From positions 1-36,374 of the forward strand of contig QHZE01000087.1 in the NCBI GenBank assembly GCA_003225335.1: a DNA stretch of 36,374 bases, in the 5' to 3' direction. The notes under the pieces are model-generated. The model was not told where the DNA came from, did no database searches, and saw only the letters and a list, made by a program, of their open reading frames with translations. Position numbers and translations under genes: made by a program. Below, piece by piece: positions 1,275-24,211 of the stretch (the first letter of the stretch is position 1; the number at the start of each line of letters is the position of its first letter). The stretch is from Acidobacteriota bacterium (GTDB lineage: Bacteria > Acidobacteriota > UBA6911).

Positions 1275-2536
1275 ACGATGGTTTCCGCCTCCTGGAACGA
1301 GAACAAAATTCTTGTTTCGGCGCGTATGACAGTCTGAGGGAATCACCCCAACGCCCCACCCAGGCCGTGATCCTGGCCGGCGGACAAGGCACGCGGCTGC
1401 GCCCGATCACCAACACGCGGCCGAAGCCAATGATAGACATTCATGGCGAGCCATTTGTGTCGTATCAGATCGAACAGCTTCGCGAGCAGGGTTTCGAGCG
1501 CATTCTGTTATTGTTGGGATACCTGCCGGAGGCGGTTCAGGAGTATTGCGGAGATGGCAGCCGCTGGGGACTGAAGATAGAGTATGCGGTCTCGGCGGTG
1601 GAGGATGAAACTTGCCGCCGGCTCAAGTTGGTTGCCCCATGTCTTGATTCCTGCTTCCTCTTGCTGTACTGCGATAATTACTGGCCGATGCAAATAGAGA
1701 AAATGTGGCAGCTGTTCATGGCCGCTAATCCGCTTGCGATGATCACCGTATACAGCAACAAGGACGGGTACACTCGGAATAACGTGCGTGTGGATCAGGA
1801 TGGACACGTGGCTCTGTATGACAAAAGCTGCACAGGCCCGGGTCTGCAAGGTGTTGAAATCAGTTATGCCTTGATCAACAAGTCAGCCATTGAGCTTCTG
1901 CCTGAAGCCAATGTCTCAGTGGCCGAGGCGTTGTACACCCAGCTTGCCGAGCGGCGGCAGTTGCTCGCCTACGTCACCGACCACCGCTACTACAGTGTCG
2001 GCGGGTTGCACCGGCTGCCGTTGACTGAAGCTTTTCTTGCCCGGCGGCCCACCATCATTCTCGACCGGGATGGCGTTCTCAACAAGAAGCCGCGGCGCGC
2101 GCACTACGTCCGGAGCTGGGACGAATTTGAATGGCTTCCCGGAGCGAAAGAGGCCTTACGCCTCCTCAAGGAAGCGGGCCACCGGGTGATCGTCGTCTCG
2201 AACCAGGCAGGCATTGGGCGCGGGGTCATGACGGAGGCCGATCTCCAACAGATTCATAAGCGGATGCGGGCGGAAGTTGAGCAAGCGGGCGGTGACATCG
2301 AGGCCGTGTACTGTTGTCCGCACGATTGGGATGCGGGCTGTGAGTGCCGCAAACCGAAGCCTGGTCTCCTCTTTCAGGCGCAGCGAGAGCTGAGCCTGGA
2401 CCTGACCCGCACTCCATTCATAGGTGACGACGAGCGCGATGTGCAGGCGGCTCACGCAGCCGGGTGTCCGTCAATGCTGGTGTCGTCTGAGGTGTCGTTG
2501 CTCGATAGGGTCCGCGAGGTGGTGAACAATGCGTGA
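1271..2536 (+). CDS. Bifunctional heptose-1-phosphate guanylyltransferase / heptose-1,7-bisphosphate phosphatase (HddC-GmhB fusion)
   Basis: A 421-residue fusion. Residues about 30-245 are a nucleotidyltransferase with the signature AVILAGGQGTRLRPITNT, PKPM and YCDNYWP. Residues about 258-415 are a HAD-IIIA phosphatase with LDRDGVLN (nucleophile Asp265, general acid Asp267), VSNQAGIGRG, a Cys/His zinc loop (CPHDWDAGCECRKPKPG) and GDDERDVQAA. Known biology: GmhB removes the 7-phosphate of heptose 1,7-bisphosphate and HddC then makes GDP-D-glycero-alpha-D-manno-heptose. Fusing them joins consecutive steps. I chose GTG 1271, which overlaps the gmhA stop as GTGA; the frame is open to 1145, but that part lies inside gmhA. 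GDP rather than another nucleotide is inferred from the nearby HddA-type kinase. The 3' end overlaps the next gene by 8 bp. Confidence 0.85.
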   Translation: MNDGFRLLEREQNSCFGAYDSLRESPQRPTQAVILAGGQGTRLRPITNTRPKPMIDIHGEPFVSYQIEQLREQGFERILLLLGYLPEAVQEYCGDGSRWGLKIEYAVSAVEDETCRRLKLVAPCLDSCFLLLYCDNYWPMQIEKMWQLFMAANPLAMITVYSNKDGYTRNNVRVDQDGHVALYDKSCTGPGLQGVEISYALINKSAIELLPEANVSVAEALYTQLAERRQLLAYVTDHRYYSVGGLHRLPLTEAFLARRPTIILDRDGVLNKKPRRAHYVRSWDEFEWLPGAKEALRLLKEAGHRVIVVSNQAGIGRGVMTEADLQQIHKRMRAEVEQAGGDIEAVYCCPHDWDAGCECRKPKPGLLFQAQRELSLDLTRTPFIGDDERDVQAAHAAGCPSMLVSSEVSLLDRVREVVNNA

Positions 2537-3608
2537 CAAGCTGAAGGGGGGAACTGTGGCAGGACGAGTTTTGGTAACCGGGCACAACGGGTATGTCGGC
2601 TCGGTTCTGGTGCCGTGTTTGTTGGAGGCAGGCTGGGAGGTAACCGGCATGGACAGCCGCTATTTCAGCCGGTGCACGCTTGTGGCCGGCCTGGCCGAGA
2701 CGACCCCGGTGAGCAAAGATATTCGGGACCTTGAACCGGCAGACTTGCACGGGTTCGATGCGGTGGTGCATCTGGCCGCCTTGAGCAATGACCCCATCGG
2801 CAATCTGAACGCAGGCTGGACGGAGGAGATTAACTTCCGGGCCTCAGCGCGACTGGCCGAGCTCGCAAAAGCCGCCGGTGTAAGGCGATTCGTCTTCTCG
2901 TCATCCTGCATCATGTATGGCATGTCGGAAGCGAATGTCGTGACCGAAGAGTCACCCCTGGCGCCCTCGACAGAGTATGCGCGCTCGAAGGTCAAGAGCG
3001 AACGAGCGATCGGGCAGCTGGCAGGGGAAGGCTTTTCACCTACGTTCCTGCGCAATGGCACGATTTACGGTCTCTCGCCCCGGATGCGTTTCGACACGGT
3101 ATTCAATGATCTGATGGGCGCTGCCGTAACCCGGGGAAGCGTGGTCGTGCACAGCGACGGGAAGCCCTGGCGTCCCGTTGTTCACGTTCAGGATGTTGCT
3201 CGCGCTTTTTTGGCGGTCCTCGAAGCGCCTGAGGCTGATGTGCACAATCAAGCGTTCAACACCGGCGCCGACCATTTGAATCATCAGATTATCGAGCTGG
3301 CCGAGATTGCCGTAAAAACCGTGCCCGGTTGCGAGTTGGAGGTGCAGTCACGGCCCGGCGCAGACCAGCGCACCTACAGGACTGATTTTGGCAAATTTGC
3401 CCGTGTCTTCCCTGATTTCGAGTTCAGGGGGACGAGAGATGGCGCACGAGATCTCTATGAAGCATTGCGGGCGAGTGGGATCACGCGCGAGACCTTCGCC
3501 GACAAGCGGTTCACCAGGCTCCGGTGGTTGTCCTATTTGTTAGATAGCGGCCAACTGGACACGACGCTGCGTTGGACCAATGGAAAGAGGCAGGCAAACC
3601 ATGATTGA
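2529..3608 (+). CDS. NAD(P)-dependent sugar-nucleotide epimerase/dehydratase (extended SDR)
   Basis: An extended short-chain dehydrogenase/reductase of 359 residues. Visible are the Rossmann signature VTGHNGYVGS near residue 20, VVHLAALSND, an SSSCIMYG strand and the catalytic YARSK (Tyr150, Lys154). These enzymes act on nucleotide sugars as 4-epimerases, 4,6-dehydratases or reductases. Lying between the guanylyltransferase and an RmlC-like epimerase, it is a candidate GDP-heptose 4,6-dehydratase or a C4-acting enzyme, but sequence alone does not settle the reaction. ATG 2529 has a GAGGTGG motif just upstream and overlaps the previous stop by 8 bp. GTG 2556, preceded by AAGGGGGG, is an equally credible start and would remove nine residues. 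The end overlaps the next gene by 8 bp. Confidence 0.8.
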   Translation: MRDKLKGGTVAGRVLVTGHNGYVGSVLVPCLLEAGWEVTGMDSRYFSRCTLVAGLAETTPVSKDIRDLEPADLHGFDAVVHLAALSNDPIGNLNAGWTEEINFRASARLAELAKAAGVRRFVFSSSCIMYGMSEANVVTEESPLAPSTEYARSKVKSERAIGQLAGEGFSPTFLRNGTIYGLSPRMRFDTVFNDLMGAAVTRGSVVVHSDGKPWRPVVHVQDVARAFLAVLEAPEADVHNQAFNTGADHLNHQIIELAEIAVKTVPGCELEVQSRPGADQRTYRTDFGKFARVFPDFEFRGTRDGARDLYEALRASGITRETFADKRFTRLRWLSYLLDSGQLDTTLRWTNGKRQANHD

Positions 3609-9439: not shown

Positions 9440-9661
9440 TTGAACGGAAGACCATTGAATACGATTGATTTCTTATTTCTTGAGTCCCGGAATCTGAAGG
9501 GCTTTCCGTTCCTCGAGGCTTTTGCAAAAGCTGAAACCGCTGATTTCGAGCGATTGTATGCCGGGAAGGACTCCTTTGGAGGTTCCATCGAGTTATACCG
9601 GTTCAAAAGATCTGCGCCGGTTCCTGAAACGGCCGGAAAGACGGAGGGCACCCACGAATGA
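9440..9661 (+). pseudogene. Orphan C-terminal fragment resembling a GT-C/GT39 membrane glycosyltransferase
   Basis: The frame ending at TGA 9659-9661 encodes IDFLFLESRNLKGFPFLEAF and then ADFERLYAGKDSFGGSIELY-RF. This resembles the soluble C-terminal end of ArnT/GT39-type proteins ('..FLEAF..DF..VYEGKDSFGGSIEIY'). No matching N-terminal or transmembrane part exists upstream; that space is the YdjM-like gene in another frame. A TTG at 9440 could start a 73-residue peptide, but a gene remnant left by a deletion is more likely. Its stop still overlaps the next gene in an ATGA junction, consistent with its being the end of a once full-length operon gene. Confidence 0.5.
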
Positions 9662-10848
9662 GCACAGTCTACCAAGAACGGTTGGCTTCACGGTCGCGTC
9701 TTTCTGATGGATGTGGCTCGGTTCCGGAACCATCCCCAAAGCTGTCCATTGTCGTTGCGGCATATTGTGAGAAGGATAACCTCCAGAAACTGTATGAAGA
9801 CCTGGTGGAGGCCCTGAAACCTCTGGACGTGACGTGGGAACTGATCCTGGTGGACGACGGAAGTACGGACGAGGATACCTGGAATGAAATCGCCGCGCTC
9901 CACTGCAGGGACGCGCGGGTTAAAGGCGTGAGGTTCTCCCGGAATTTCGGACATCAATACGGTCTTTTCGCCGGACTCTCCAGTGCGCGTGGGCAGGCCG
10001 TCGTGACGATGGATGCGGACCTCCAGCACCCGCCATCGGCGATTCCTCTGCTTCTGCGGGAATGGGATAACGGGCGGAAGATCGTCCATACCGTCAGGAT
10101 CGACAATGGAGACACGTCGTGGTTAAAAAGGACGACTTCGCTGGCCTTCTACAAGCTGTTTTCATTTTTGAGCGGCGTGGACCTTTCCGCAGGGATGTCG
10201 GATTTTCGCCTCTTGGACAGGCGGGTGGTTAACGAACTCCTTCAATTCAGGGAAATGGGCCTTTTCCTACGCGGCCTGGTCCACTGGGTGGGATACCCGA
10301 GCTCGAAGATCGAATTTCAATGCCAAAGCCGATTCGCGGGAACAAGTAAATATAATTTCCGCCGTATGCTTAGATTCGCCTGGACCGGGATCACGTCGTT
10401 CTCCACCATTCCGCTGCGGGCCGGCATCATTATCGGGCTGCTGACAAGTTTGGTCGCCTTCTATCAGTTGGGTGAGGCGCTTTGGCTCAAGTGTTTCACC
10501 GACCGCGCCGTACCAGGATGGGCTTCTATTATCGGTCTGCAGTCTTTGTTGTTTGGCGTGCTGTTCATCTTGCTCGGAATTCTGGGAGAATACATGGCAC
10601 GGATTCTGGAGGAGGTTCGCGCACGGCCTCGATTTATTGTCAGTGAATGCCAGGCAAACCTGCCAAGCTCATCGTGCACGGTGACGATTTCGGGATTTCG
10701 GAAAGAATCAACGACGGCATTTTGCGCGCCCACTGCGACGGGATTCTTACTTCCTCGTCAATTATTGCCAACGGAGAGGCATTTGAACACGCGGCTGCCC
10801 TTGCCCGTTCGACCCCCAGTTTGGATATCGGTGTTCACCTCACCCTGA
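9658..10848 (+). CDS. Polyprenyl-phosphate glycosyltransferase, GT2 (GtrB/ArnC/DPM1-like), with anomalous C-terminus
   Basis: 396 residues. The catalytic domain has SIVVAAYCEKDNL, LVDDGSTDED, the DxD motif in TMDADLQHPP and RFAGTSKYNF, followed by two membrane helices (about residues 257-280 and 300-325) and LGEYMARILEEVRARPRFIV. This is the classic GtrB-type layout, transferring a sugar to undecaprenyl phosphate to serve the GT-C enzymes nearby. Normal proteins stop soon after RPRFIV; here the frame runs on for about 70 residues of unlike composition, all overlapping the deacetylase gene by 202 bp. A TGA at 10644-10646 in another frame, directly before the next ATG, suggests the original stop was lost by a small indel. 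The start is ATG 9658 in an ATGA overlap. Confidence 0.85.
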   Translation: MSTVYQERLASRSRLSDGCGSVPEPSPKLSIVVAAYCEKDNLQKLYEDLVEALKPLDVTWELILVDDGSTDEDTWNEIAALHCRDARVKGVRFSRNFGHQYGLFAGLSSARGQAVVTMDADLQHPPSAIPLLLREWDNGRKIVHTVRIDNGDTSWLKRTTSLAFYKLFSFLSGVDLSAGMSDFRLLDRRVVNELLQFREMGLFLRGLVHWVGYPSSKIEFQCQSRFAGTSKYNFRRMLRFAWTGITSFSTIPLRAGIIIGLLTSLVAFYQLGEALWLKCFTDRAVPGWASIIGLQSLLFGVLFILLGILGEYMARILEEVRARPRFIVSECQANLPSSSCTVTISGFRKESTTAFCAPTATGFLLPRQLLPTERHLNTRLPLPVRPPVWISVFTSP

Positions 10849-11507: not shown

Positions 11508-11594
11508 ATGAGGATAGTTTCGATAAATCGCCCCTGGGCCTTCAAATTCTGTTCCGAAAGCCATGATCTTCAACTCTTCCACGGATCCCGATGA
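11508..11594 (+). CDS. Small ORF of 28 codons, unknown
   Basis: ATG 11508 reads MRIVSINRPWAFKFCSESHD and ends at TGA 11592-11594, overlapping the next ATG as ATGA, the junction style used throughout this locus. The opening MRIVSINRP resembles the first strand of a glycosyltransferase or sugar enzyme. It may be the stump of a deleted gene or only a translational coupler. No function can be assigned. Confidence 0.2.
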   Translation: MRIVSINRPWAFKFCSESHDLQLFHGSR

Positions 11595-13219
11595 GCAGCG
11601 CTAGTCCCTGGTTAGCCACATGGGAAACGGCTCGTCCCAAGGCTGCCTACTGGTCTGCGGCCGTCCTGGTTGCACCACTGTTCCTCCTGGCGCTGTATAT
11701 CTACGGCCATGGGTTAGGGAAGCGCAGCCTGTCCATCGACGAGCTCTACCACGTGTATGCGGCGGATTCACTGAACCGGGATGGAACGTTTGCCCTTCCC
11801 TCCGGACGGCCGTATGAACGGGCGGCGCCCTACACTTATGCCGTGGGCCTTTCTTTCAAGTACCTGGGGGTTTCCGAATTCTCCGCGCGGATCCCCAGCG
11901 TTCTTTTTGGGCTGCTTTACCTGGCGCTTTTTTTCCGCCTGGTGGACACTTCTTTCGGCCGGGGCGCTGCCGTCTTGAGCGCGCTCCTCGTCGTCCTGTC
12001 CCCGCTCGAAGTCTATTACGCGCGGGAATGCCGGTTCTATTCGTTGCTTCAAGTGTCTTATTTGGTCCTGGTTTATTCGTTCTTCAAGCTGTTCGAGACT
12101 TTCAGAGAAGCGCAGCCGGCATGGGACTCAAGGCGCGTGCGCAAGCTCGTGCTACTGAGCCTGGTGTTTGCAGTGGCGGGATATCTGTGCCTCAAGATGC
12201 AAGCCTTCGGAACTTTGCTGTTTCTCCCTTCGGTAGCCCTTTTCGTTGTGTTTACGTTGATCAATACGTTTTTTGCGAGGCGTTCGGCGCCGCCGCTCAA
12301 ATTTGCGCTAACCGCGGCCGGGGTCCTCGCGACTGCCGTAGCAGGCCTCTATCTCTCGACAGAGCTTCTGGGCGCCACTTTTTTTCAGTCATTCACCTAC
12401 GTTCCCAGATGGGCCAGCTACTTTGCGGGCGATCGCCTGTTTTATTTTCGCGTGTTGTATCACCAGAATGCTTTGCTTTGCCTCCTCGTCCCTGTGGGTG
12501 CGCTGCTCGCTATGCGGGGGAACGCGGCCGGCGCTCTTTACTTTGGTTCTCTTTTCGCAGCGCCCTTCATGATCCTGTCGTTTCTGCCTCTGAAACAAGA
12601 TCGGCTTTTGCACCATGTCTACCCGTTCGCGCTTGTTTTAATCTCCGTCTGCATCGTTGTCTCCTTTGGCAAGATCATGGAGATCCTCCGGCTGAGGACG
12701 GGCGGACCGAAACGATGGATGACGGCGCTGTTGTTGATCGGCACGATTACTGCCTTGGCCGCCAACACCGCATTCGCCTATGGCCGCTTTAAAATATCTT
12801 TTCCCCCGACGCCGGGCTGGAAGGAAACGTGTTCCTCATTGAGAAGCAGAATATCCGGTGACGACATTGTGGTTACGGACAATTCCATTGCGGTCCGGCA
12901 CTACCTGGGCAGGGTCGATTACGTGATGGACGAAAATTTGCTGGAAATCAGCAAGCAGGCCGGATGCCGCGACCGGAGCGGCAGGTGGCGCGACTATTAC
13001 ACGGACGCCGTCCATATAACTTCGATCGGTGAACTGATGGAACTGGCGGGCGGCGGCAAGCGGGCATGGATCCTTTTGGGGCACGACGGAAGCGGGTTTC
13101 GCAGCATCCACGAGTTCGCCGGAACGATCGGTAAACCGATCACCGGCGACGCGATCGACGAAGAAATAAAAGTGTACAGCGTTGGTCCGTCATTCAGGCC
13201 AGGTCTGCCGATACAGTGA
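11591..13219 (+). CDS. GT39/ArnT-like polyprenyl-phosphate-dependent membrane glycosyltransferase
   Basis: 542 residues. After a first membrane helix (about residues 23-42) comes an extracytoplasmic loop with the acidic pair SIDELYHVYAADSL, the usual GT-C catalytic Asp/Glu position, followed by roughly ten more helices (e.g. SARIPSVLFGLLYLALFFRL). A soluble C-terminal domain of about 140 residues begins after the last helix near residue 400. Such enzymes take a sugar from undecaprenyl phosphate, presumably loaded by the GtrB-type GT2 genes of this locus, and add it outside the cytoplasmic membrane. The start at ATG 11591 has no clear ribosome site. The stop overlaps the next gene (GTGA), so the two are coupled. 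Confidence 0.75.
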   Translation: MSSASPWLATWETARPKAAYWSAAVLVAPLFLLALYIYGHGLGKRSLSIDELYHVYAADSLNRDGTFALPSGRPYERAAPYTYAVGLSFKYLGVSEFSARIPSVLFGLLYLALFFRLVDTSFGRGAAVLSALLVVLSPLEVYYARECRFYSLLQVSYLVLVYSFFKLFETFREAQPAWDSRRVRKLVLLSLVFAVAGYLCLKMQAFGTLLFLPSVALFVVFTLINTFFARRSAPPLKFALTAAGVLATAVAGLYLSTELLGATFFQSFTYVPRWASYFAGDRLFYFRVLYHQNALLCLLVPVGALLAMRGNAAGALYFGSLFAAPFMILSFLPLKQDRLLHHVYPFALVLISVCIVVSFGKIMEILRLRTGGPKRWMTALLLIGTITALAANTAFAYGRFKISFPPTPGWKETCSSLRSRISGDDIVVTDNSIAVRHYLGRVDYVMDENLLEISKQAGCRDRSGRWRDYYTDAVHITSIGELMELAGGGKRAWILLGHDGSGFRSIHEFAGTIGKPITGDAIDEEIKVYSVGPSFRPGLPIQ

Positions 13220-14587: not shown

Positions 14588-14676
14588 AAAACGCTAAGCA
14601 GATAGTTTGGTTGCGGCTCGGCTGTCTCTGTGGTCATTCCCACTCTCTCAAACCATCCCTCAGGAATAACAAGGTG

Positions 14677-15552
14677 ATGAACCTGGACGCTCGCACGGTC
14701 TCGCTTGAACACCGGTTACAAACGGCTTCCTTCCGGAAGTTGTCGGTTGTCATTCCCGTTTACAACGAGGCTGAAAACCTGGAGCCATTGTGCGCAGAGC
14801 TCGAGCAAGCGGTCGGGCCGCTGAATATCGAATCAGAGTGGATCTTTGTGGATGACGGCAGCAGCGATGACTCGGTTGCGCGGCTGCGGAGGCTCAAGCA
14901 CAGGTTTCCGGCGATACGAATCGTGAAGCTGCGGCGGAACTTCGGGCAGACAGCAGCCATGCAGGCCGGATTTGAGAAGTCCGCCGGTGACGTCGTCGTA
15001 AGCATGGATGCCGATCTCCAAAACGATCCCCGCGATATTCCCTGTCTCCTGAAGAAGCTTGAAGAGGGCTACGACCTGGTTTGTGGCTGGAGACGAGACC
15101 GGAAGGACCCCTGGATCAGTCGAAATCTTCCTTCCAAGATGGCTAACTGGCTGATTCGAAGGGTGATCGGGACCAGGATCCATGACAATGGCTGCTCCCT
15201 GAAGGCCTACCGCGGCGAGCTGGTGCGAATGCTCAGACTGTATTCCGACATGCATCGCTTTATTGCAGCAGTTTCGGCAATGAGCGGCGCGCGCATCGGG
15301 GAACTGATCGTTACCCATCGTGCGAGGAAACATGGCGCGAGCAAGTACGGGATCTCGCGAACATTCAAAGTCTTGTCGGATCTGTTCGCCCTCAAGCTGA
15401 TTGCGCGATTCGGCTCCAAACCGTTGCTGGGCTTCTTTACGCTCGCCCTCCCTTTTGGCCTTCCAGGTTTTCTCCTGCTGAGGCCTCATCGGAGAGATGG
15501 CCATAAACGCCACGCGCCCTCGGCTCAAAGACGGCGCCCAATTGATACTTGA
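14677..15552 (+). CDS. GtrB/DPM1-like GT2 glycosyltransferase with damaged membrane tail
   Basis: 291 residues from ATG 14677 (an AGGA lies about 13 bases upstream; GTG 14674 is an alternative). The catalytic part is intact: SVVIPVYNEAENL, FVDDGSSDD (59-62), MDADLQNDPRD (DxD at 111-113), HDNGCSLKAYRGE and HGASKYGISRTF. The expected tail is two membrane helices and a GLIGE segment. Here the first helix (KPLLGFFTLALPFGLPGFLL) is cut off. The frame continues as an Arg/His-rich stretch (RPHRRDGHKRHAPSAQRRR) that is not membrane-like. The missing tail, GLIGEMAINATRPRLKDGAQ, sits in another frame at 15482-15574. So a deletion of roughly 35-40 codons plus a frameshift is likely. It should load a polyprenyl phosphate if functional. 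Confidence 0.8.
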   Translation: MNLDARTVSLEHRLQTASFRKLSVVIPVYNEAENLEPLCAELEQAVGPLNIESEWIFVDDGSSDDSVARLRRLKHRFPAIRIVKLRRNFGQTAAMQAGFEKSAGDVVVSMDADLQNDPRDIPCLLKKLEEGYDLVCGWRRDRKDPWISRNLPSKMANWLIRRVIGTRIHDNGCSLKAYRGELVRMLRLYSDMHRFIAAVSAMSGARIGELIVTHRARKHGASKYGISRTFKVLSDLFALKLIARFGSKPLLGFFTLALPFGLPGFLLLRPHRRDGHKRHAPSAQRRRPIDT

Positions 15553-15574
15553 GGAGTTAAAGGGTGGAAACTAA
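15482..15574 (+). pseudogene. Out-of-frame C-terminal tail of the preceding GT2
   Basis: Reading from 15482 gives GLIGEMAINATRPRLKDGAQ and then LILEELKGGN before TAA 15572-15574. This matches the form of the conserved GLIGE tail seen in the next gene (GIGLIGEILVF). In this frame an in-frame TGA lies at 15479-15481, so it cannot be read through from upstream. The stop overlaps the next gene's GTG start by 11 bp, the normal operon geometry, which supports this being the original gene end. Confidence 0.55.
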
Positions 15575-16553
15575 AGCAGTTCAGGCTTTACCGATCCCTA
15601 CGGAATACGAGGGCGACCGGGTGCCGCATATATCGGTGGTCGTCCCGGTTGTCGAACGGTTCGACGATCTGGAACGGCTGTACAAGGATTTTTCCGCAGA
15701 GATTTCCAAGGTCACCGACGACTTCGAATTCGTATTCATTGTCGAACCCTCCCAGTTCGGCGCCCTGGCGTCGTTGCGCCGGTTGATGACCGGCGAGCCT
15801 CGCGTACGCCTCTTCCGGTTCAATTCTTCCTTCGGCGAGGCTGCCGCTCTGGCGGCGGGACTTTCCAGGGCGCGCGGGGAATTCATTTTTACGCTGGCCT
15901 CTTATTACCAGGTCCGGCCCGAGACGTTTCGCCAGGTCTATGAATTACTGAATCAAAACAAGGATGTAGTCGTTACGCGCCGATACCCTCGGATCGACTC
16001 CAACTTCGGCCGGTTCCCATCCTTCGTTTTTCACTGGATAGCTTCGCGGTTGTCCGGGATAGCCTTTCACGACGGCTCGTGCGGTTTTCGGGGCATACGT
16101 CGCGAAGCGGCCCGGGAACTCACGGTATATGGGGACCTGCATCCGTTTCTGCCGGCGCTTGCAAACAGGCAAGGCTATCGGGTTGTGGAAATAAACGCGC
16201 TTCAGCATCCGCTGAATACGCGCGCCGGAGTCCGCGGTCCTGGCGCATACGCCAGCCGTTTGCTGGCCCTCTTCACCCTCTTTTTCCTCATGAAGTTCAT
16301 CAAGAAGCCTTTGCGGTTCTTTGGAGCGGTCGGGGCTGCCACGGCTTTTGCAGGGTTTTCCATCTGTTTGTATTTGACTGTTCTTCGGCTCTTCTACGGC
16401 AGTGCTCTTGCCGATCGTCCGTTGCTTATGCTGGGGGTTCTGTTACTGCTCGGCGGCGTACAGACGGTCGGGATCGGGTTGATCGGGGAAATTCTAGTTT
16501 TCAGCCACGCAAGAGAATCTAAAGACTATCAAATTGAGAGTATAATGGAGTGA
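15564..16553 (+). CDS. GT2-fold protein lacking catalytic motifs (pseudo-glycosyltransferase), membrane-anchored
   Basis: 329 residues from GTG 15564 with GAGGAG upstream. The fold matches the GtrB/DPM1 layout of its neighbour: HISVVVPVVERFDDLERLYK at the N-terminus, FRFNSSFGEAAALAAGLSRA, FHDGSCGFRGIRRE, and two clear C-terminal membrane helices ending in GLIGEILVF. But the DDGS nucleotide site is VEPS (60-63) and the DxD metal motif (MDADLQ in the neighbour) is LASYYQ (111-116). It therefore should not bind a metal-nucleotide in the usual way. The rest of the protein is well kept, so a structural or regulatory partner of the active GT2 is more likely than decay. Specialised loss of function in tandem with an active paralogue is inference. 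Confidence 0.75.
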   Translation: METKAVQALPIPTEYEGDRVPHISVVVPVVERFDDLERLYKDFSAEISKVTDDFEFVFIVEPSQFGALASLRRLMTGEPRVRLFRFNSSFGEAAALAAGLSRARGEFIFTLASYYQVRPETFRQVYELLNQNKDVVVTRRYPRIDSNFGRFPSFVFHWIASRLSGIAFHDGSCGFRGIRREAARELTVYGDLHPFLPALANRQGYRVVEINALQHPLNTRAGVRGPGAYASRLLALFTLFFLMKFIKKPLRFFGAVGAATAFAGFSICLYLTVLRLFYGSALADRPLLMLGVLLLLGGVQTVGIGLIGEILVFSHARESKDYQIESIME

Positions 16554-16556
16554 ACT

Positions 16557-18038
16557 TTGTTGGCAACCATGATTAAGACGTCCGGTTCAATTAGCGACAA
16601 TTCCGAAACCCCCGGGGATTCGGGCCGATCCAAGAAGGTGTTGATAGCAGGCGCCGGTCCCGCAGGTTTGACGGCAGCCTACGAGCTGTGCAAACGCAAT
16701 GCTGTACCCATTATTTTCGAAAAAGAGAGTATCGTGGGCGGCCATGCTCGCACGGACGTATTCAAGGGCTATCGTTTCGACATTGGTGGGCATCGATTTT
16801 TCACCAAGATCCCACAGGTGATCCAAATCTGGCACGAGGTCCTGGGAGCGAAGTTCATGAAAGTCTCCAGGCTGTCCCGGATTTACTACAACGGAAAGTT
16901 TTTCCATTACCCGCTCAAACTGGCCAATGTGGTGTTGGGCCTGGGCTTGTGGAACAGCTTCCTTATCTTGATGAGCTTTTTCCGCTCTATCCTCTTTCCC
17001 TATCCGAAAGAGGATAATCTCGAAGAATGGGTCAGCAACCGCTTCGGCAAGCGCCTTTACCGCACTTTTTTCAAGACCTACACAGAAAAGGTGTGGGGAA
17101 TCCCGTGCAACCAGATACAGGCCGAGTGGGCGGCGCAGCGCATAAAGGGATTGTCGCTCCGCACCGCGGTCATGAATGCCGTTTTTGGCGGCCGTAAGAA
17201 GAACATCAAGTCCCTCATCGAAGAGTTTCACTATCCGGAATTGGGTCCCGGCATGATGTGGGAATACGTTCGAAATCACGTAAAGTCCCATGGCGGGCAG
17301 GTACACATGAATCGGGACGTGCTCAAGATCCATCGAGGGAAAGACCGCGTCCTGGCGTTTACCGTGGGCAATCACGAGTTTCAGGAGTATGTCGAAGGGA
17401 CTCATTTTGTTGCGAGCATGCCGGTGACGGAGGTCATCGAGAGGATGGACCCGCCTTCGCCGCCTGAGGTAATAGAGGCCGCGGGACACCTGAAGTACCG
17501 TGATTTCCTGACCGTTTGCGTGATCGTGGATCATCCCGACCTCTTTCCCGACAACTGGATCTATGTCCACAGCCCGGAGGTTCACATGGGCAGGCTGCAG
17601 AACTTCAAGAACTGGAGTCCCCATATGGTTCCGGATCAGGCCAAGACCAGTCTTGGCGCCGAGTATTTTGTAAACGAGAATGACGCGCTGTGGAACATGG
17701 CGGACGAAGATCTTGTCGATTTGGCGGCCAAGGAACTGGAAAGCATCGGTCTCACCAAGGGCGCGCGGATCGAAGGCGGGGTCGTCTACCGCCAGAAGAA
17801 GGCCTATCCGGTCTATGATGAAACCTACCGCAAGTATCTGGATGTCATAGAAAAATTTCTAAAGAGCCTGGGGAACCTGCACATGATCGGCCGAAACGGG
17901 CTCCACAAGTACAACAACCAGGACCACGCCATGCTGACGGCCATTCTGGCCGTGGAGAACATCTACGGGGCCAGCCACGACGTATGGCAAGTCAACAGTG
18001 ACCAGGCCTATCACGAAGAAGCTGTGGAAGAAAAATAA
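16557..18038 (+). CDS. FAD-dependent oxidoreductase, UDP-galactopyranose mutase-like
   Basis: 493 residues. The FAD-binding VLIAGAGPAGLTAAYELCKR lies near residues 29-48, followed by IIFEKESIVGGHARTD and DIGGHRFFTK, the GG-doublet and substrate-lid region seen in UDP-galactopyranose mutase and protoporphyrinogen-oxidase-like flavoproteins. The C-terminal GRNGLHKYNNQDHAMLTAIL closes the FAD site. Members of this group in polysaccharide loci are thought to make furanose or otherwise rearranged sugars, but the substrate here is not shown. The start is TTG 16557 or 16560, six to nine bases after GGAG. ATG 16569 would be 18 bases away and would remove only four residues. It follows the pseudo-GT2 by three bases, suggesting they are co-transcribed. 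Confidence 0.8.
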   Translation: MLATMIKTSGSISDNSETPGDSGRSKKVLIAGAGPAGLTAAYELCKRNAVPIIFEKESIVGGHARTDVFKGYRFDIGGHRFFTKIPQVIQIWHEVLGAKFMKVSRLSRIYYNGKFFHYPLKLANVVLGLGLWNSFLILMSFFRSILFPYPKEDNLEEWVSNRFGKRLYRTFFKTYTEKVWGIPCNQIQAEWAAQRIKGLSLRTAVMNAVFGGRKKNIKSLIEEFHYPELGPGMMWEYVRNHVKSHGGQVHMNRDVLKIHRGKDRVLAFTVGNHEFQEYVEGTHFVASMPVTEVIERMDPPSPPEVIEAAGHLKYRDFLTVCVIVDHPDLFPDNWIYVHSPEVHMGRLQNFKNWSPHMVPDQAKTSLGAEYFVNENDALWNMADEDLVDLAAKELESIGLTKGARIEGGVVYRQKKAYPVYDETYRKYLDVIEKFLKSLGNLHMIGRNGLHKYNNQDHAMLTAILAVENIYGASHDVWQVNSDQAYHEEAVEEK

Positions 18039-18468
18039 CCTGGCTCGGGTGTCCGTCAGGAGCCGTGAGAAAACTCGTATCCCCTTCCTGATGATCGCGG
18101 CTCTGTTTCTGAGATCTGTGGATTCGTGAAACGCCCGAGGCTGACCGCCGTAGGGTGAAGATGCAGGACTGTGGCGCCAGCATCGCCGCAGATGTGCCAG
18201 AACGGCGAACACAGGTCTGTACCACAAAGCCGAGAATCCTTCGTGTTAGCTGGAAAGGATTTTCTGCGTCCCCCTGGGAGCGTCCTCCTGGGAACGTCCG
18301 GCGCAGCGGGACGTTCCCGTCGAAGGAGCCTCCGCGTTTTCTGCGTCTCTTGCGGTGAGGTTCGGAGTTCAGGCTTTAGCCTGCTCAAAAGCGGCTTGAA
18401 GGCTGAACTCCCAACCTTTGGTATGCGGCTCTGCGCCGTGTTCATTCTGCGTTCATCTGGGGTTTTTT
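18039..18468. other. Gene-free gap filled with repeat fragments
   Basis: No convincing gene in either strand. It contains GGGAACGTCC (18290-18299) paired exactly with GGACGTTCCC (18309-18318) across a 9-base loop. A second hairpin, GGAGTTCAGGCTT at 18364-18376, is mirrored by the segment ending in TGAACTCC (18404-18411). Other stretches (CTGAGATCTGTGGATTCGTG) look like worn copies of the CACAGAT-type repeat. This separates the glycosyltransferase block from the regulation/export block. Confidence 0.55.
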
Positions 18469-18789
18469 ATGCAAGTAAGCGAAACGCAAGATCAGGAAAG
18501 ACGGCGGGACCGGCGACACCCGGCTTCCTGCGAGTTCAGAGTTTGGCAGTTGCTCGTGTTGAGCCCGGACCGAAAAAAGGAAGAGCTTACTCACGCGCGC
18601 GTCAAGAACATCAGTAAAGGGGGCGTTTGCGTCGTGACGGATCGCCCCATAAACGGGACCTATCCCGTCCGGTGCGAGCTCATTATATCGGAGGTCCCCG
18701 TCCCGCTGCCGTTGATCATGAAAGTCCGATGGACGCAGTCAATCTCGCGCGGAAGGGAACACACCATTGGCTTGCAGTTTCTGTTGTAG
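18469..18789 (+). CDS. PilZ domain protein (probable c-di-GMP receptor)
   Basis: 106 residues from ATG 18469. The c-di-GMP binding signature is present: the arginine cluster ERRRDRRHPASCEFRV (RxxxR) near the N-terminus and NISKGG (N/DxSxxG) about 45 residues on, followed by VRWTQS and the family-typical ending IGLQFLL. A single-domain PilZ protein beside a polysaccharide export operon is a common way of linking c-di-GMP to polymer synthesis or export (established for alginate and cellulose systems; here inference). The ribosome-binding site is poor. An in-frame upstream extension to 18418 lies in repeat-like DNA and was rejected. Confidence 0.8.
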   Translation: MQVSETQDQERRRDRRHPASCEFRVWQLLVLSPDRKKEELTHARVKNISKGGVCVVTDRPINGTYPVRCELIISEVPVPLPLIMKVRWTQSISRGREHTIGLQFLL

Positions 18790-19226: not shown

Positions 19227-19820
19227 ATGTTGCATAAAGCATGCCGCGTGTTTGTTCTATGTTTGGCTTTGACGCCCTGTGTCCAGGCGCAAAACGGCAA
19301 AGAGGCCGCTCCTGCGGCCCCCGTCAGTAAACCCGTCCCCCTGTATGTAATCCAACCTAACGACATCCTCGAGGTATTCGTGTGGAAGGAACCGGATTTG
19401 ACGCGCAAAGTCCTGGTGCGCCCCGACGGCCGCATCTCGTTTCCTCTGGTGCAGGATATGCAGGCCTCCGGCATCAGCCCGGGTGAATTAAAGACACACA
19501 TCGAGAGCAAGCTGAAAGAGTACATCGACTCGCCCAACGTCACGATCATCGTCGACGCCATCCAGAGTTACAAAGTCTTTGTGACGGGAAAGGTGCAGAA
19601 ACCAGGCGCCATTCTTGCCGAGAAGCCGATCACGGTGCTGCAGGCGCTGGCTATGGCGGGTGGTTTTGCGGAATATGCAAAGACGTCGGAAATGTCGATC
19701 CTTCGCTATTACGACAACGAGAACATCGTGTTCAGGTTTGACTACGGCGAGGTGACCAAAGGGAAGAACTCGAACCAGAATATCCTGCTGAGATCCGGCG
19801 ACGTTGTGGTCGTGCCTTAG
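19227..19820 (+). CDS. Polysaccharide export outer-membrane protein (Wza/Poly_export family), short form
   Basis: 197 residues: a signal peptide of about 21 residues ending CVQA, then the Poly_export domain (YVIQPNDILEVFVWKEPDLT, VLVRPDGRISFPLVQDM, GISPGELKTHI, VTIIVDAIQSYKVFVTGKV) and one SLBB-like repeat (PGAILAEKPITVLQALAMAG), ending in LLRSGDVVVVP. Full Wza is about 360 residues with a C-terminal amphipathic pore helix. This short form lacks that and probably pairs with the outer-membrane beta-barrel encoded next, as in Wza-less or EpsA/GfcE-type systems. A Cys at residue 18 is not in a canonical lipobox. The start is ATG 19227 with GGTGA 6-10 bases upstream. Confidence 0.9.
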   Translation: MLHKACRVFVLCLALTPCVQAQNGKEAAPAAPVSKPVPLYVIQPNDILEVFVWKEPDLTRKVLVRPDGRISFPLVQDMQASGISPGELKTHIESKLKEYIDSPNVTIIVDAIQSYKVFVTGKVQKPGAILAEKPITVLQALAMAGGFAEYAKTSEMSILRYYDNENIVFRFDYGEVTKGKNSNQNILLRSGDVVVVP

Positions 19821-19869
19821 ACTACCCTTCTTTGCAAACATCCAGCTGTTTCGTTGGTGGTGAATTTTA

Positions 19870-21090
19870 ATGTGGATTTTGAAGATTTCAAGAATGCTGT
19901 TGATAAGCCTGGCGCTTCTGCAGGGGGTCGAAACCGCGCGTGCGGAGCGCAAGTATAGGGTCGGCACGCAGATCGATCTTGTGTCGGGCACCACGAGCCG
20001 ATCGACCGATGGCGGGCTCGACGCGACGCAACCACTGCAAGACCGTACTTTCTTCTACGCACTCTATCCCTCCCTCGCGCTTACGTCTGCAGGCGACCAC
20101 TCCCTGCTTGAAGTGTCGTATGCCTTCGGTTTGAACCGGACAAACACGGGTTTAAACCTCGACAATGGTTCCCACGTCGCCTCGGCGACCTTCAAGGCTT
20201 CGCTTAACCCCAGGTGGAGATACACCCTGGCAGAATCCTTTGAGATGACGTCTGACTTCACGACTCTCAATGTCCTTCGGGGAACCATGGCCACCCCTGA
20301 AGAGTACCGGTTCCTCTTCTACCCGGTTGCCACCCGGCGCTCGAGCCAAGTCAGCAACGCGAGCGCCAGTGTCGAAACCCAGATCAACGACAAATCGAGT
20401 CTCTCCTTCGGTGTTTCCCACGGACTTCGAAATTACCCGGATATTCCGCTCCTCCGCGGAATTCTCTCGGATCAGCAGCGCATCGCAGGGAACGTTACCT
20501 ATACGCGAAGGACATCGGAACGCAACAGCTGGACGCTCAACTACGCGGGAACATATTATAGCTTCCGCGACTTCCAAGGTTCTAACACGCACGCTGTCAC
20601 CCTGGGATATTCCCGCAGCTTGAGCCCTACCATGACGCTTCAAGTCGCCGCAGGTCCTTCTTTTACCCAGTTGCTGAGCTCGGGCGGCAATTACGCAACA
20701 TACGACGCCTCCGTCGCATTGATGAAACGCCTTAAACCGAACGTCGTGTCACTTTATTACAGCTACGCGAGCGGCCAGGGGTCCGGTTTGGGTTCCATCT
20801 CGGATACACAGCATGCTGGATTCGGCTTTTCCCGGCCGGTAGGGAAAAAGACCTCGTTGGCCGTTGACATTTCAGCATTCGACAGCCGCGGCCGCCTGGG
20901 CAATGCCTACGGTACGCGAGGCGCATCCGGGGCAGCCACCGTCGGTGTCGCTCTCAACAAAACACTTTCTCTCAATATCGGCGGGCAGTATCAGCGGTAC
21001 GATGGGACCGCTATCTTCGGTTTTGAAGACAGGCGAGTTTTCGCTTCGCTGAGATTCCTGACGCCTGACCTTTGGAGATTCGCGCGATGA
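19870..21090 (+). CDS. Outer-membrane beta-barrel protein of the polysaccharide export system
   Basis: 406 residues with a signal peptide of about 25 residues ending ARA. The mature part is a long run of alternating strands separated by short turns, rich in aromatic and Ser/Thr residues (e.g. YALYPSLALTSAGDHSLLEV, WTLNYAGTYYSFRDFQG, VSLYYSYASGQG), without Cys pairs or enzymatic motifs. It ends in FASLRFLTPDLWRFAR. This is typical of the otherwise uncharacterised barrel that follows a short Wza in several phyla and may be the actual pore. It is preceded by GGTGGTGA and overlaps the Wzz-like gene by an ATGA, so the three are translated together. Confidence 0.75.
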   Translation: MWILKISRMLLISLALLQGVETARAERKYRVGTQIDLVSGTTSRSTDGGLDATQPLQDRTFFYALYPSLALTSAGDHSLLEVSYAFGLNRTNTGLNLDNGSHVASATFKASLNPRWRYTLAESFEMTSDFTTLNVLRGTMATPEEYRFLFYPVATRRSSQVSNASASVETQINDKSSLSFGVSHGLRNYPDIPLLRGILSDQQRIAGNVTYTRRTSERNSWTLNYAGTYYSFRDFQGSNTHAVTLGYSRSLSPTMTLQVAAGPSFTQLLSSGGNYATYDASVALMKRLKPNVVSLYYSYASGQGSGLGSISDTQHAGFGFSRPVGKKTSLAVDISAFDSRGRLGNAYGTRGASGAATVGVALNKTLSLNIGGQYQRYDGTAIFGFEDRRVFASLRFLTPDLWRFAR

Positions 21091-22718
21091 AAAGATCGAG
21101 TCTGAACAACCTCCGCGACGTTCTGGCGCTTTTTGTTCGTCGCAGATCGTGGATTCTCGTACCCTTCATCACGTTGTCCCTTGCGATCGCTCTCCTCACG
21201 TATCTGTTGCCCAAAGTGTACGTCTCCGAGAGCTTGATTCTGATTCAGCCGCGCGGCGTCCCTGAGGAATTCGTGAAGGATCTCATCGGGGGCTCCACCG
21301 AGCAGCGTTTGAGCAGCATTGAGAAGACTGTTCTCAGCCGGACGAATCTGATCCTGATTCTCGACCAGTTCGAGCAGCACCTTCCCGAAGTCCGCGGCTT
21401 GAATGTGGATCAGAAGGTGCTCAAACTGAGAGGGCAGATCGCGGTCGCTTTCGAGGCGGAGCACCGCATGGGTGTCCCGTTGCCGTTGACCTACTTCCGG
21501 ATCTCGTATCAAAACCAGAATCCCGGGCTGGCGCAGCAGATTGCCGGCAAGCTGACATCGTTATTCATTGAACAGGACACCAAATTCCGAGGAGACAGGG
21601 GCAAGGAAAGCACGGACTTTCTCTCTTCAGAGCTGGAAAAGGTGGCAGAGCAGTTGAAACAATCGGAGACGAAACTCGCCGAGTTGAAGCGGCAGCACAT
21701 CCATGAACTCCCCGCCCAACTCGAGACTAACCTTCGCACTCTCGACCGTCTCAACCTTCAGAAGCAAGCCAATGCGGAAGCGCTCGACCGCTCCGCCACG
21801 CTTCGGCTGAACCTCGAGAAGCTGATTGCGGACACACCTGCGCTCATCGCAAAGGAGACGCAGGCAAGTAAAGGAACGCCCCCGGCAAGTGTTCTGGTAG
21901 AAACTTATCGAAAGAGAGAAACGGAGTACCACCAGTTGTTGGGAAAATACACGAGCAGCCATCCGGACGTCCTGCGCGCCAAAGCGGAGCTCGAGCGATT
22001 GAAGAAGGAAATTCCTCCCGAGGACCTCGTTCAGCCGCAGCGAGCGCCTGGGGAGCCTTCTCCTCCTCCGGTCATGGTTCCCAACGCCGCCTATCAAAAC
22101 CTGACGGCGCAGTTGCGCGAATTGGCGACCGAATTCGAGATTCGCGAAAGGGAAAAGAAATGGATCGAATCGGAGATAGCCAAGTACAGCGACCGGGTCC
22201 AGAATGCTCCTGCCCGCGAGCAGGACATGGCTGCAGTCCTGCGGGCGAACACCGAACTGACCAAGCAGTACCAGGATTTGAAGGACAAGCTTTCCCAGGC
22301 CAAGCTGTCCCAAAGCCTCGATAGCGGGTCCAGGGGATCGCAGTTCTTGGTGGTCGATCCGGCGAATTACCCGCTGTTACCGTCGAAGCCAAACAAGTTA
22401 GCTGTCGTTTTGGCCGGAATGGGGATGAGCCTGGGCGTGGGGATCGGCCTTGCCACCGCCGCGGACCTTCTCAACCAGAAAATCTGGACTCAAACCGAAA
22501 TCGAGCACAACTTCGACGTCCCGGTGCTGGCCGAAATACCTGAGATCGTCACGGATGCCGATCTCTCTCTGGCCCGTAAGAAAAGGCTGGCCTACGCCGC
22601 CCTCTCAGTTGTCTTCGGCACCGCATACCTTGGGGTTCTCTATTTCATATACCTCAAGCAAATGCGCGTGCTCACCCTTCTCGATCCAATCATCCAGAAA
22701 ATGATCTACACATCATGA
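21087..22718 (+). CDS. Wzz/GumC-type polysaccharide co-polymerase (chain-length determinant)
   Basis: 543 residues from ATG 21087. The first membrane helix (about residues 22-43, ILVPFITLSLAIALLTYLLP) is followed by the Wzz N-terminal sequence VYVSESLILIQP. A long charged coiled-coil region (about 170-410: LEKVAEQLKQSETKLAELKR, ELTKQYQDLKDKLSQAKL) leads to the Pro/Gly-rich PSKPNK segment and the second helix (AVVLAGMGMSLGVGIGLATA). A third hydrophobic stretch near the C-terminus (YAALSVVFGTAYLGVLYFIY) is an addition to the usual two-helix plan. It sets chain length with Wzy and is the membrane partner of the BY-kinase encoded next, to which it is coupled by ATGA. Confidence 0.85.
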   Translation: MKRSSLNNLRDVLALFVRRRSWILVPFITLSLAIALLTYLLPKVYVSESLILIQPRGVPEEFVKDLIGGSTEQRLSSIEKTVLSRTNLILILDQFEQHLPEVRGLNVDQKVLKLRGQIAVAFEAEHRMGVPLPLTYFRISYQNQNPGLAQQIAGKLTSLFIEQDTKFRGDRGKESTDFLSSELEKVAEQLKQSETKLAELKRQHIHELPAQLETNLRTLDRLNLQKQANAEALDRSATLRLNLEKLIADTPALIAKETQASKGTPPASVLVETYRKRETEYHQLLGKYTSSHPDVLRAKAELERLKKEIPPEDLVQPQRAPGEPSPPPVMVPNAAYQNLTAQLRELATEFEIREREKKWIESEIAKYSDRVQNAPAREQDMAAVLRANTELTKQYQDLKDKLSQAKLSQSLDSGSRGSQFLVVDPANYPLLPSKPNKLAVVLAGMGMSLGVGIGLATAADLLNQKIWTQTEIEHNFDVPVLAEIPEIVTDADLSLARKKRLAYAALSVVFGTAYLGVLYFIYLKQMRVLTLLDPIIQKMIYTS

Positions 22719-24211
22719 CCGTCCAGCTTCTCCTAGACCATATTCGACCAATACTCGAGGGCTCCAAAGACGGCACCCTCTTGCTCGGAAACCAGTCTGA
22801 AATCATAAAAGTCTTCTGCCGGCAGGGGCTGATAGAAGCAGTCTCCTCCAACCTCGAGCAGTACCACCTGGGGCAGCACCTGGTGACGGAGGGATTCATG
22901 GAAGCCTCGGCGGTCCAGCCGCTGCTGGCGGAATCCCGGCGCCAGGGAGTGCCCATCGGAGAAGCCGCCCTCCGGAGCAAGCTTCTGGAGCCCGCAGAGC
23001 TCGCGGACGTCATCCGCCGCCAGGCATTTCAGCTGCTCCGGCACGCGTTGGAAAAGCAATTCTCCGTCCAGTCTTTTCAGGTCTCGGCTACCGGCTTCTC
23101 TGTGCCGGCCCAGATCCACTTCGAGAACCTGCTGCTGGAGGTCGCGCGCGGCGATTCCAAACCTTTCCAGGTGTATCCATGGCAGCTCGTAGTCATGAAT
23201 AACGGGAAAGACCTCACCCACTTGCCCTGGTATCCTCAGGAGCTCTCGGTGCTCAGCGAACTGAGACGGTCGCGCACCCTCCAAGACCTGGCTACCGCTA
23301 CCGGGCTGGAATACGTCCGCCTGACGAAAATCCTGGACGTCTTCAGGAAGCTCCAGGTAGTGGACATAGTGGATGAGGAAACCGGGCAGGACGACACGAA
23401 GGGGAGTGCCGCGGTGGGCGGGCAATCTCGCTTCCCCTTTGAGCACCTGATTCCGGAAATCAGCAACGCCGTCCTCAGCGAAAAGCTGGAAGTCCTCAAG
23501 AATGAATTCTCTTTCGTCAGCGAGCAGTTCAAAGCCTTGAAGGTGCGGATCAACGAAACCCAGGCTGACCATGCAGTCCAGACGATCGCAATCTCGAGCC
23601 CGCGTCCGCAGGACGGGAAATCACTGATAGCCGTTAATCTGGCATTCTGTCTTGCGCAAGACTTGGATCGAAGGGTCATCCTCGTGGATGGCGACCTTCG
23701 AAACCCGACCGTGAACAGGTATCTCGGCGTCTCCGTCGAGCCTGGACTGAGCGGTTATCTGGAGAATGGCCATCTGCAGCCTTACTGCTACATGCGCCGC
23801 TTCAAGAACCTGTATATCATGACGGCTGGCGGCGTTTGCACCAACCCCGTGGAATTGCTCTCTCAAGACAAGATGCGAGAGCTGATCCAGTACCTGAAGA
23901 CTGAATTTGACACGATAATCTTCGATGCGCCGCCCTTCGCGCCGATCCCCGATGCCCGGATTATCATGGGACTGAGCGACGGGTTGGTGTTGGTCGTGCG
24001 GCGGGGCAAGACGCCCTTCTCCGCCATCGAAAAGGCTTTCAAGGTTCTAGACCGGAAAAAGCTGCTGGGTATCGTCTTCAATGACGTCAAGCCGATGCTT
24101 CTCCACACCCACTACGATCACGGCTATTACCGTTATGGCAAGCAGGGCGCCTACCCCTATTACGGTACCCGCAAGCCCCGGTCCCGTTCCAAAAACTACC
24201 TCGAGAGCTAG
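22715..24211 (+). CDS. DUF4388/PATAN-like domain fused to CpsD/Wzc-type bacterial tyrosine kinase
   Basis: 498 residues. The N-terminal part (about 1-230) has the look of DUF4388: KDGTLLLGNQSEIIKVFCRQ, LGQHLVTEGF and the repeated helical LLEPAELADVIRRQAFQLLR, then a winged-helix-like segment (LSELRRSRTLQDLATATGLE). Residues about 260-470 are a BY-kinase: Walker A SPRPQDGKSLIAVNLAFCL (near 294), Walker A' VILVDGDLRNP (near 321) and Walker B TIIFDAPPF (near 400). The C-terminus is a tyrosine cluster (HYDHGYYRYGKQGAYPYYG) for autophosphorylation. It should cycle phosphorylation to control Wzz/Wzy. The DUF4388 part may sense or bind a partner; its function is not established. The kinase call is strong, the N-terminal domain call moderate. 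Confidence 0.85.
   Translation: MTVQLLLDHIRPILEGSKDGTLLLGNQSEIIKVFCRQGLIEAVSSNLEQYHLGQHLVTEGFMEASAVQPLLAESRRQGVPIGEAALRSKLLEPAELADVIRRQAFQLLRHALEKQFSVQSFQVSATGFSVPAQIHFENLLLEVARGDSKPFQVYPWQLVVMNNGKDLTHLPWYPQELSVLSELRRSRTLQDLATATGLEYVRLTKILDVFRKLQVVDIVDEETGQDDTKGSAAVGGQSRFPFEHLIPEISNAVLSEKLEVLKNEFSFVSEQFKALKVRINETQADHAVQTIAISSPRPQDGKSLIAVNLAFCLAQDLDRRVILVDGDLRNPTVNRYLGVSVEPGLSGYLENGHLQPYCYMRRFKNLYIMTAGGVCTNPVELLSQDKMRELIQYLKTEFDTIIFDAPPFAPIPDARIIMGLSDGLVLVVRRGKTPFSAIEKAFKVLDRKKLLGIVFNDVKPMLLHTHYDHGYYRYGKQGAYPYYGTRKPRSRSKNYLES

Follow-up and report, generated by a model that had tools for sequence, protein, structure and literature searches.

A catalytically silent GT2 encoded beside an active GT2: a putative heteromeric polyprenyl-phosphate glycosyltransferase

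What role can a family 2 glycosyltransferase (GT2) play once its catalytic motifs are gone, and why is it encoded directly beside an active relative? The question is raised by a 36,374-nucleotide stretch of an Acidobacteriota genome (contig QHZE01000087.1, assembly GCA_003225335.1), hereafter called the window. In the original prediction, a catalytically silent GT2 and its active neighbour were proposed to form a heteromeric enzyme, or an enzyme with a regulatory partner, in polyprenyl-phosphate sugar synthesis. Here we examine the silent protein, its homologues and the gene with which it is paired.

The silent gene and its protein

The silent gene and its landmarks are the following:
15553..15566, forward strand: GGAG ribosome-binding site and GTG start of the silent gene, read from the sequence
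15564..16553, forward strand: silent (pseudo-) GT2 subunit, GtrB/ArnC-like, 329 amino acids
15894..15911, forward strand: LASYYQ loop (residues 111-116), in place of the catalytic DxDxQ loop

The GGAG lies 7 nt 5' of the GTG and directly after the present stop codon of the upstream gene. Relatives align with the protein over its whole length, which rules out a frame error or wrong coordinates. The protein matches the Pfam GT2 family at 4.4e-16, and ArnC-like is the top NCBIfam match for both it and its neighbour; it scores 110.4 bits against the NCBIfam ArnC model NF007986, for which the curated cut-off of 529 is not reached. Among characterised proteins, ArnC and GtrB are closest to it, the former being the top sequence match among solved structures (1.3e-26). 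An AlphaFold2 model built with an alignment of 35 relatives (pLDDT 87) displays a GT-A fold, two juxtamembrane helices (147-164 and 226-245), two membrane helices (249-278 and 286-318) and a C-terminal strand, and Foldseek ranks ArnC and GtrB at the top, with ArnC as the best fold match. The predicted retention of the fold elements and of both membrane helices is thus borne out by the model. By fold, the silent protein belongs to the GtrB-ArnC family, but it lacks the defining catalytic features of active GtrB and ArnC.

Residues were mapped on Synechocystis GtrB, with the numbering verified on 16 residues that PMC4728340 names. The reported changes of DDGS to VEPS and of the DxD loop to LASYYQ are both confirmed, the DxDxQ motif reading A112-S-Y114-Y-Q116. 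Across the ten silent proteins described below, this motif has become [A/P]-x-Y-x-Q, with Y replaced by R once, and the random, unconserved substitutions that would speak against a real subfamily are absent from the loop. The metal-site aspartates D112 and D114 (GtrB D94 and D96) are present in 52 of 52 canonical GtrBs and in all ten active partners, and in none of the silent proteins. In the A-loop, the position of GtrB R200 (R217 in the numbering of the silent protein) holds Arg in 0/10 (Lys once) and that of K206 (K223) holds Lys in 0/10. The YNE glutamate E32 is found in 1/10, and the substitutes at these three positions are varied or hydrophobic. Conversely, Q98, the acceptor-phosphate Arg R122 and the basic R125 (GtrB numbering) are kept in ten out of ten. 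The loss of the DDGS site is only partial: it does read VEPS, but the base-contacting Asp, which is the second D of DDGS (GtrB D43), is replaced by Glu here and is an acid (D or E) in 8/10 members. The decisive losses are the metal site and the A-loop, rather than the DDGS site. In PfDPMS, the counterparts of the residues lost here form a latch over the donor, from the metal site to the A-loop (PMC5526996), and R122 of GtrB binds the acceptor phosphate (PMC4728340). Since the metal-site and A-loop residues are lost and R122 is kept, donor-metal binding should be destroyed in the silent proteins while the acceptor-side residues are left in place.

Members of this subfamily were sought among relatives, in the class, in the phylum and in a collection of 84,980 named species, the latter scanned with two peptide patterns, so that the member count is a lower bound. 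At least ten members exist (the window, L081, L084, L060, L061, L082, L083, L085, L086 and L087), spanning at least three phyla with Acidobacteria, Desulfobacteraceae and Planctomycetota; nearly all come from metagenome-assembled genomes, and only ten pairs are known. The nine homologues, which rule out a lone odd sequence, are 36-56% identical to the window copy, and the reading frame is open in 10/10 genomes. In 396 genomes of the phylum, a profile of the subfamily scores its members at 441 bits or more and the best other GtrB at 343 bits. A scan of viral contigs for a viral origin gave nothing.

The active partner and the surrounding genes

The gene upstream of the silent one, and what follows it, are as follows:
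14611..15552, forward strand: active partner GT2 (VDDGS, MDADLQND, R-x-x-G-x-S-K), its C-terminus frameshifted after TM1 in the assembly
15482..15574, forward strand: out-of-frame remnant of the partner's original C-terminus (GLIGEMAINATRPRLKDGAQLILEELKGGN, then a stop), overlapping the start of the silent gene

The true start of the partner is probably downstream of 14611, and the silent gene begins 11 nt past its present stop. Compared with L081, the window partner has lost about 100 bp upstream of the remnant, corresponding to the loop and TM2, with a frameshift. The description of the neighbour as an active paralogue therefore holds for its intact catalytic domain and not for its C-terminus. 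The source assembly is a draft of 795 contigs; either the assembly is wrong, or the pair is broken here, or the membrane part of the silent subunit suffices.

The association itself is constant. It had been asked whether LASYYQ-type genes always neighbour an active GtrB-like gene, and in 10/10 loci, from at least three phyla, the gene immediately upstream, on the same strand, encodes an active GT2 with the motifs VDDGS (VNDGS in L083) and D[A/G]DLQN. In the nine loci other than the window, the spacing ranges from -41 to +155 nt, five pairs overlapping and one abutting (6/10 overall). Among control GtrBs, no second GT2 was found near the gene in 79 loci (some overlapping) plus 25 more, mostly inspected over 1.5 kb on each side. 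When the 396 phylum genomes were searched with a partner profile, the top five matches (443-489 bits) were the five genomes that carry silent genes, and the next ones, canonical GtrBs, started at 416 bits; silent and partner genes are thus confined to the same 5/396 genomes (Fisher 1.3e-11). These score gaps, like those of the silent profile, are partly expected, as the same sequences helped to build the profiles, and the tree serves as an independent check.

In that tree (75 proteins, IQ-TREE, LG+C20), the silent proteins form one clade (100/100) and the partners another (100/100). The two are separate and not sisters, which rules out a recent tandem duplication. The subgroups window with L081, L083 with L085, and L086 with L087 appear in both clades, and the silent and partner pairwise distances are correlated (r=0.85; 0/5000 permutations as high), a match that can arise by shared inheritance alone. 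For the L086/L087 pair, dN/dS is 0.29 for the silent gene and 0.27 for the partner, indicating purifying selection on both. With ten homologues, adjacency in all ten loci and a dN/dS of about 0.29, the silent gene is not a product of chance.

Neighbouring reading frames in GC-rich loci were called with a composition score. The genes around the pairs are exopolysaccharide genes, and include an asparagine-synthase-like amidotransferase in six loci, GT4 enzymes, LPG_synthase_TM proteins and a DUF3473 deacetylase; a PMT_2 GT-C gene lies directly 3' of the silent gene in L086, L087 and L104. The corresponding genes of the window are:
11591..13219, forward strand: PMT_2 (GT-C type) membrane glycosyltransferase, candidate user of a polyprenyl-phosphate sugar
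at 13216: GT4 gene
19227-24211: export, chain-length and tyrosine-kinase genes of XrtA type

This context is compatible with a polyprenyl-phosphate sugar used outside the cytoplasm.

Several other features of these loci were recorded. A PRK07208-type FAD oxidoreductase (16557-18038) starts 3 bp past the silent gene in the window; its presence beside the pair is not conserved across the other nine loci. A third GT2, PgfS-like, occupies 9658-10848; its family match stops near residue 331 and the frame continues for about 65 codons over the start of an HpnK/YdjC-like gene (10647), which suggests a lost stop or a frameshift. The XrtA-type tyrosine autokinase (22715-24211) carries an N-terminal extension of about 250 residues, which matches an MshE-related c-di-GMP-binding domain only below threshold, and a PilZ protein is encoded at 18418-18789. 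In L083, an FrhB/FdhB-type protein (1899-3236) is encoded within the exopolysaccharide cluster.

Reciprocal losses and the possible roles of the silent protein

A comparison at reference positions, where at least 95% of 52 canonical GtrBs share one residue, brings a new observation. Thirteen positions, all in the catalytic domain, are lost in the silent proteins only (E32, D60, S63, D65, N89, D112, D114, W139, N157, K176, R217, G220 and R228), and seven in the partners only (G190, G254, G257, P286, G298, Q300 and Y322); apart from G190, the latter fall in the membrane part or C-terminus (region-by-loser Fisher 7e-5). Identity follows the same division, with 38% in the catalytic and 56% in the membrane part within silent proteins, 54% and 29% within partners, and 51% and 42% within canonical GtrBs. 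The losses are reciprocal: the silent protein keeps the membrane part without the catalytic residues, and the partner keeps the catalytic residues without the membrane-part signature. The model of the partner has the fold and two predicted TM helices, with a disordered C-terminus where that of the silent protein has its strand (moderate confidence). GtrB itself is a homotetramer with two helices per protomer, in which a C-terminal hairpin bridges neighbouring subunits (PMC4728340). As a separate observation, G190 (silent numbering) is invariant in canonical and silent proteins and is S or A in 9/10 partners, though it lies in the catalytic domain; it is a possible subunit-interface position.

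We consider it likely that the silent protein and its partner constitute one obligate heteromeric polyprenyl-phosphate glycosyltransferase. The earlier interpretation, heteromer or regulator, is supported and sharpened by these comparisons: it is mainly the reciprocity of the losses that favours a heteromeric enzyme over a regulator. The upstream subunit would bind the nucleotide sugar and the metal and perform the transfer, while the downstream subunit, unable to bind the metal-diphosphate, would be non-catalytic. From the latter would come the C-terminal strand, the conserved bundle in the membrane and an additional set of acceptor-side residues, presumably with a role towards the acceptor, and these parts would let the complex assemble, anchor and receive polyprenyl phosphate. 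By analogy with the GtrB homotetramer, the stoichiometry is perhaps 2+2 in a heterotetramer. A GT-C enzyme of PMT_2 type would probably consume the product in the synthesis of an exopolysaccharide or glycoconjugate.

A regulator or acceptor-lipid chaperone, which hands polyprenyl phosphate to a homomeric active GT2 or withholds it, would also account for the invariant R122 and R125 equivalents, for the strong conservation of the silent membrane part and for the constant co-encoding with an active enzyme. A homomeric partner should, however, keep the canonical membrane-part residues, and G254, G257, P286, G298, Q300 and Y322 are lost, so that we regard this role as improbable; the partner might still form homomers, as its divergent membrane part is still predicted as two helices. 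Less probable again is an active, metal-independent transferase that uses a different donor in series with its neighbour. The non-random [A/P]-x-[Y/R]-x-Q loop, the base-contacting acid kept in most members and purifying selection would agree with such an activity, but the residues that fasten the loop over the donor, namely Arg and Lys of the A-loop and the Glu, are lost as well, and the silent gene is never seen without an active partner.

The missing catalytic residues and the frameshifted neighbouring gene could finally be taken as signs of a decaying duplicate heading to a pseudogene. For the subfamily this is refuted by conservation, and we hold it to be very improbable: the gene is open in every genome, across several phyla and at 36-56% identity to the window copy, dN/dS is about 0.29 where measurable, the proteins form one old clade, and their membrane part is more conserved than that of the active enzymes. 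A different matter is whether a genuine pair has become non-functional in the window genome through a real deletion of the partner's TM2. With its partner ending after TM1, the window may hold a broken pair, or the assembly may be wrong. The missing 100 bp and frameshift relative to L081, together with the still recognisable out-of-frame remnant, point to a real loss; against it stand the fragmented draft, in which a local assembly error is possible, the intact catalytic domain and the open silent gene, and we consider such a loss rather unlikely. It would be compatible with the heteromeric enzyme as the explanation for the subfamily.

Relation to known systems

The silent protein would act as one of the two halves of a divided GtrB, and the pairs may well represent an undescribed class of bacterial polyprenyl-phosphate glycosyltransferase, in which the GtrB homotetramer is split into a donor-binding, catalytic chain and a pseudoenzyme chain carrying the membrane bundle and the acceptor side. 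No paper on such a GT2 pair was found in the open-licence literature, an absence that is weak evidence. For enzymes of the GtrB, ArnC and DPM1 type, how a membrane-buried lipid phosphate reaches an active site about 15 Å off the membrane is an open question (PMC4728340). If the heteromeric enzyme is real, it would be a natural split of two jobs across paralogous chains, each of which can be mutated alone, and it would reveal which active site is served by the membrane helices of each subunit. It would also give a clear example, from bacteria, of a glycosyltransferase pseudoenzyme that has an obligate partner, and a warning for annotation, as both genes would be labelled merely "glycosyltransferase family 2".

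GtrB (sll0501, a polyisoprenyl-phosphate glucosyltransferase) shares with the silent protein the GT-A domain, two juxtamembrane and two TM helices, the C-terminal strand and the R122 and R125 positions; it is, however, a homotetramer of active subunits (PMC4728340), whereas the silent protein lacks D94, D96, R200 and K206 and has a co-encoded active partner. ArnC, the undecaprenyl-phosphate Ara4FN transferase, is the top match by solved-structure sequence and by fold, but keeps DDGS and DADLQ, and the silent protein lies far under its NCBIfam cut-off. The human dolichol-phosphate mannose synthase DPM1/DPM2/DPM3, like the pair, has its membrane part on other polypeptides than the catalytic chain (PMC5526996); DPM2 and DPM3 are small membrane proteins and not GT2 paralogues, while the second subunit here is a whole inactivated GT2. 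Finally, IRX9/IRX14 of plant xylan synthesis (GT43) also place a structural, apparently non-catalytic GT-fold protein beside an active transferase (PMC4132061). They belong to another GT family, occur in plants and involve no polyprenyl phosphate, and the resemblance is one of working, not of membership.
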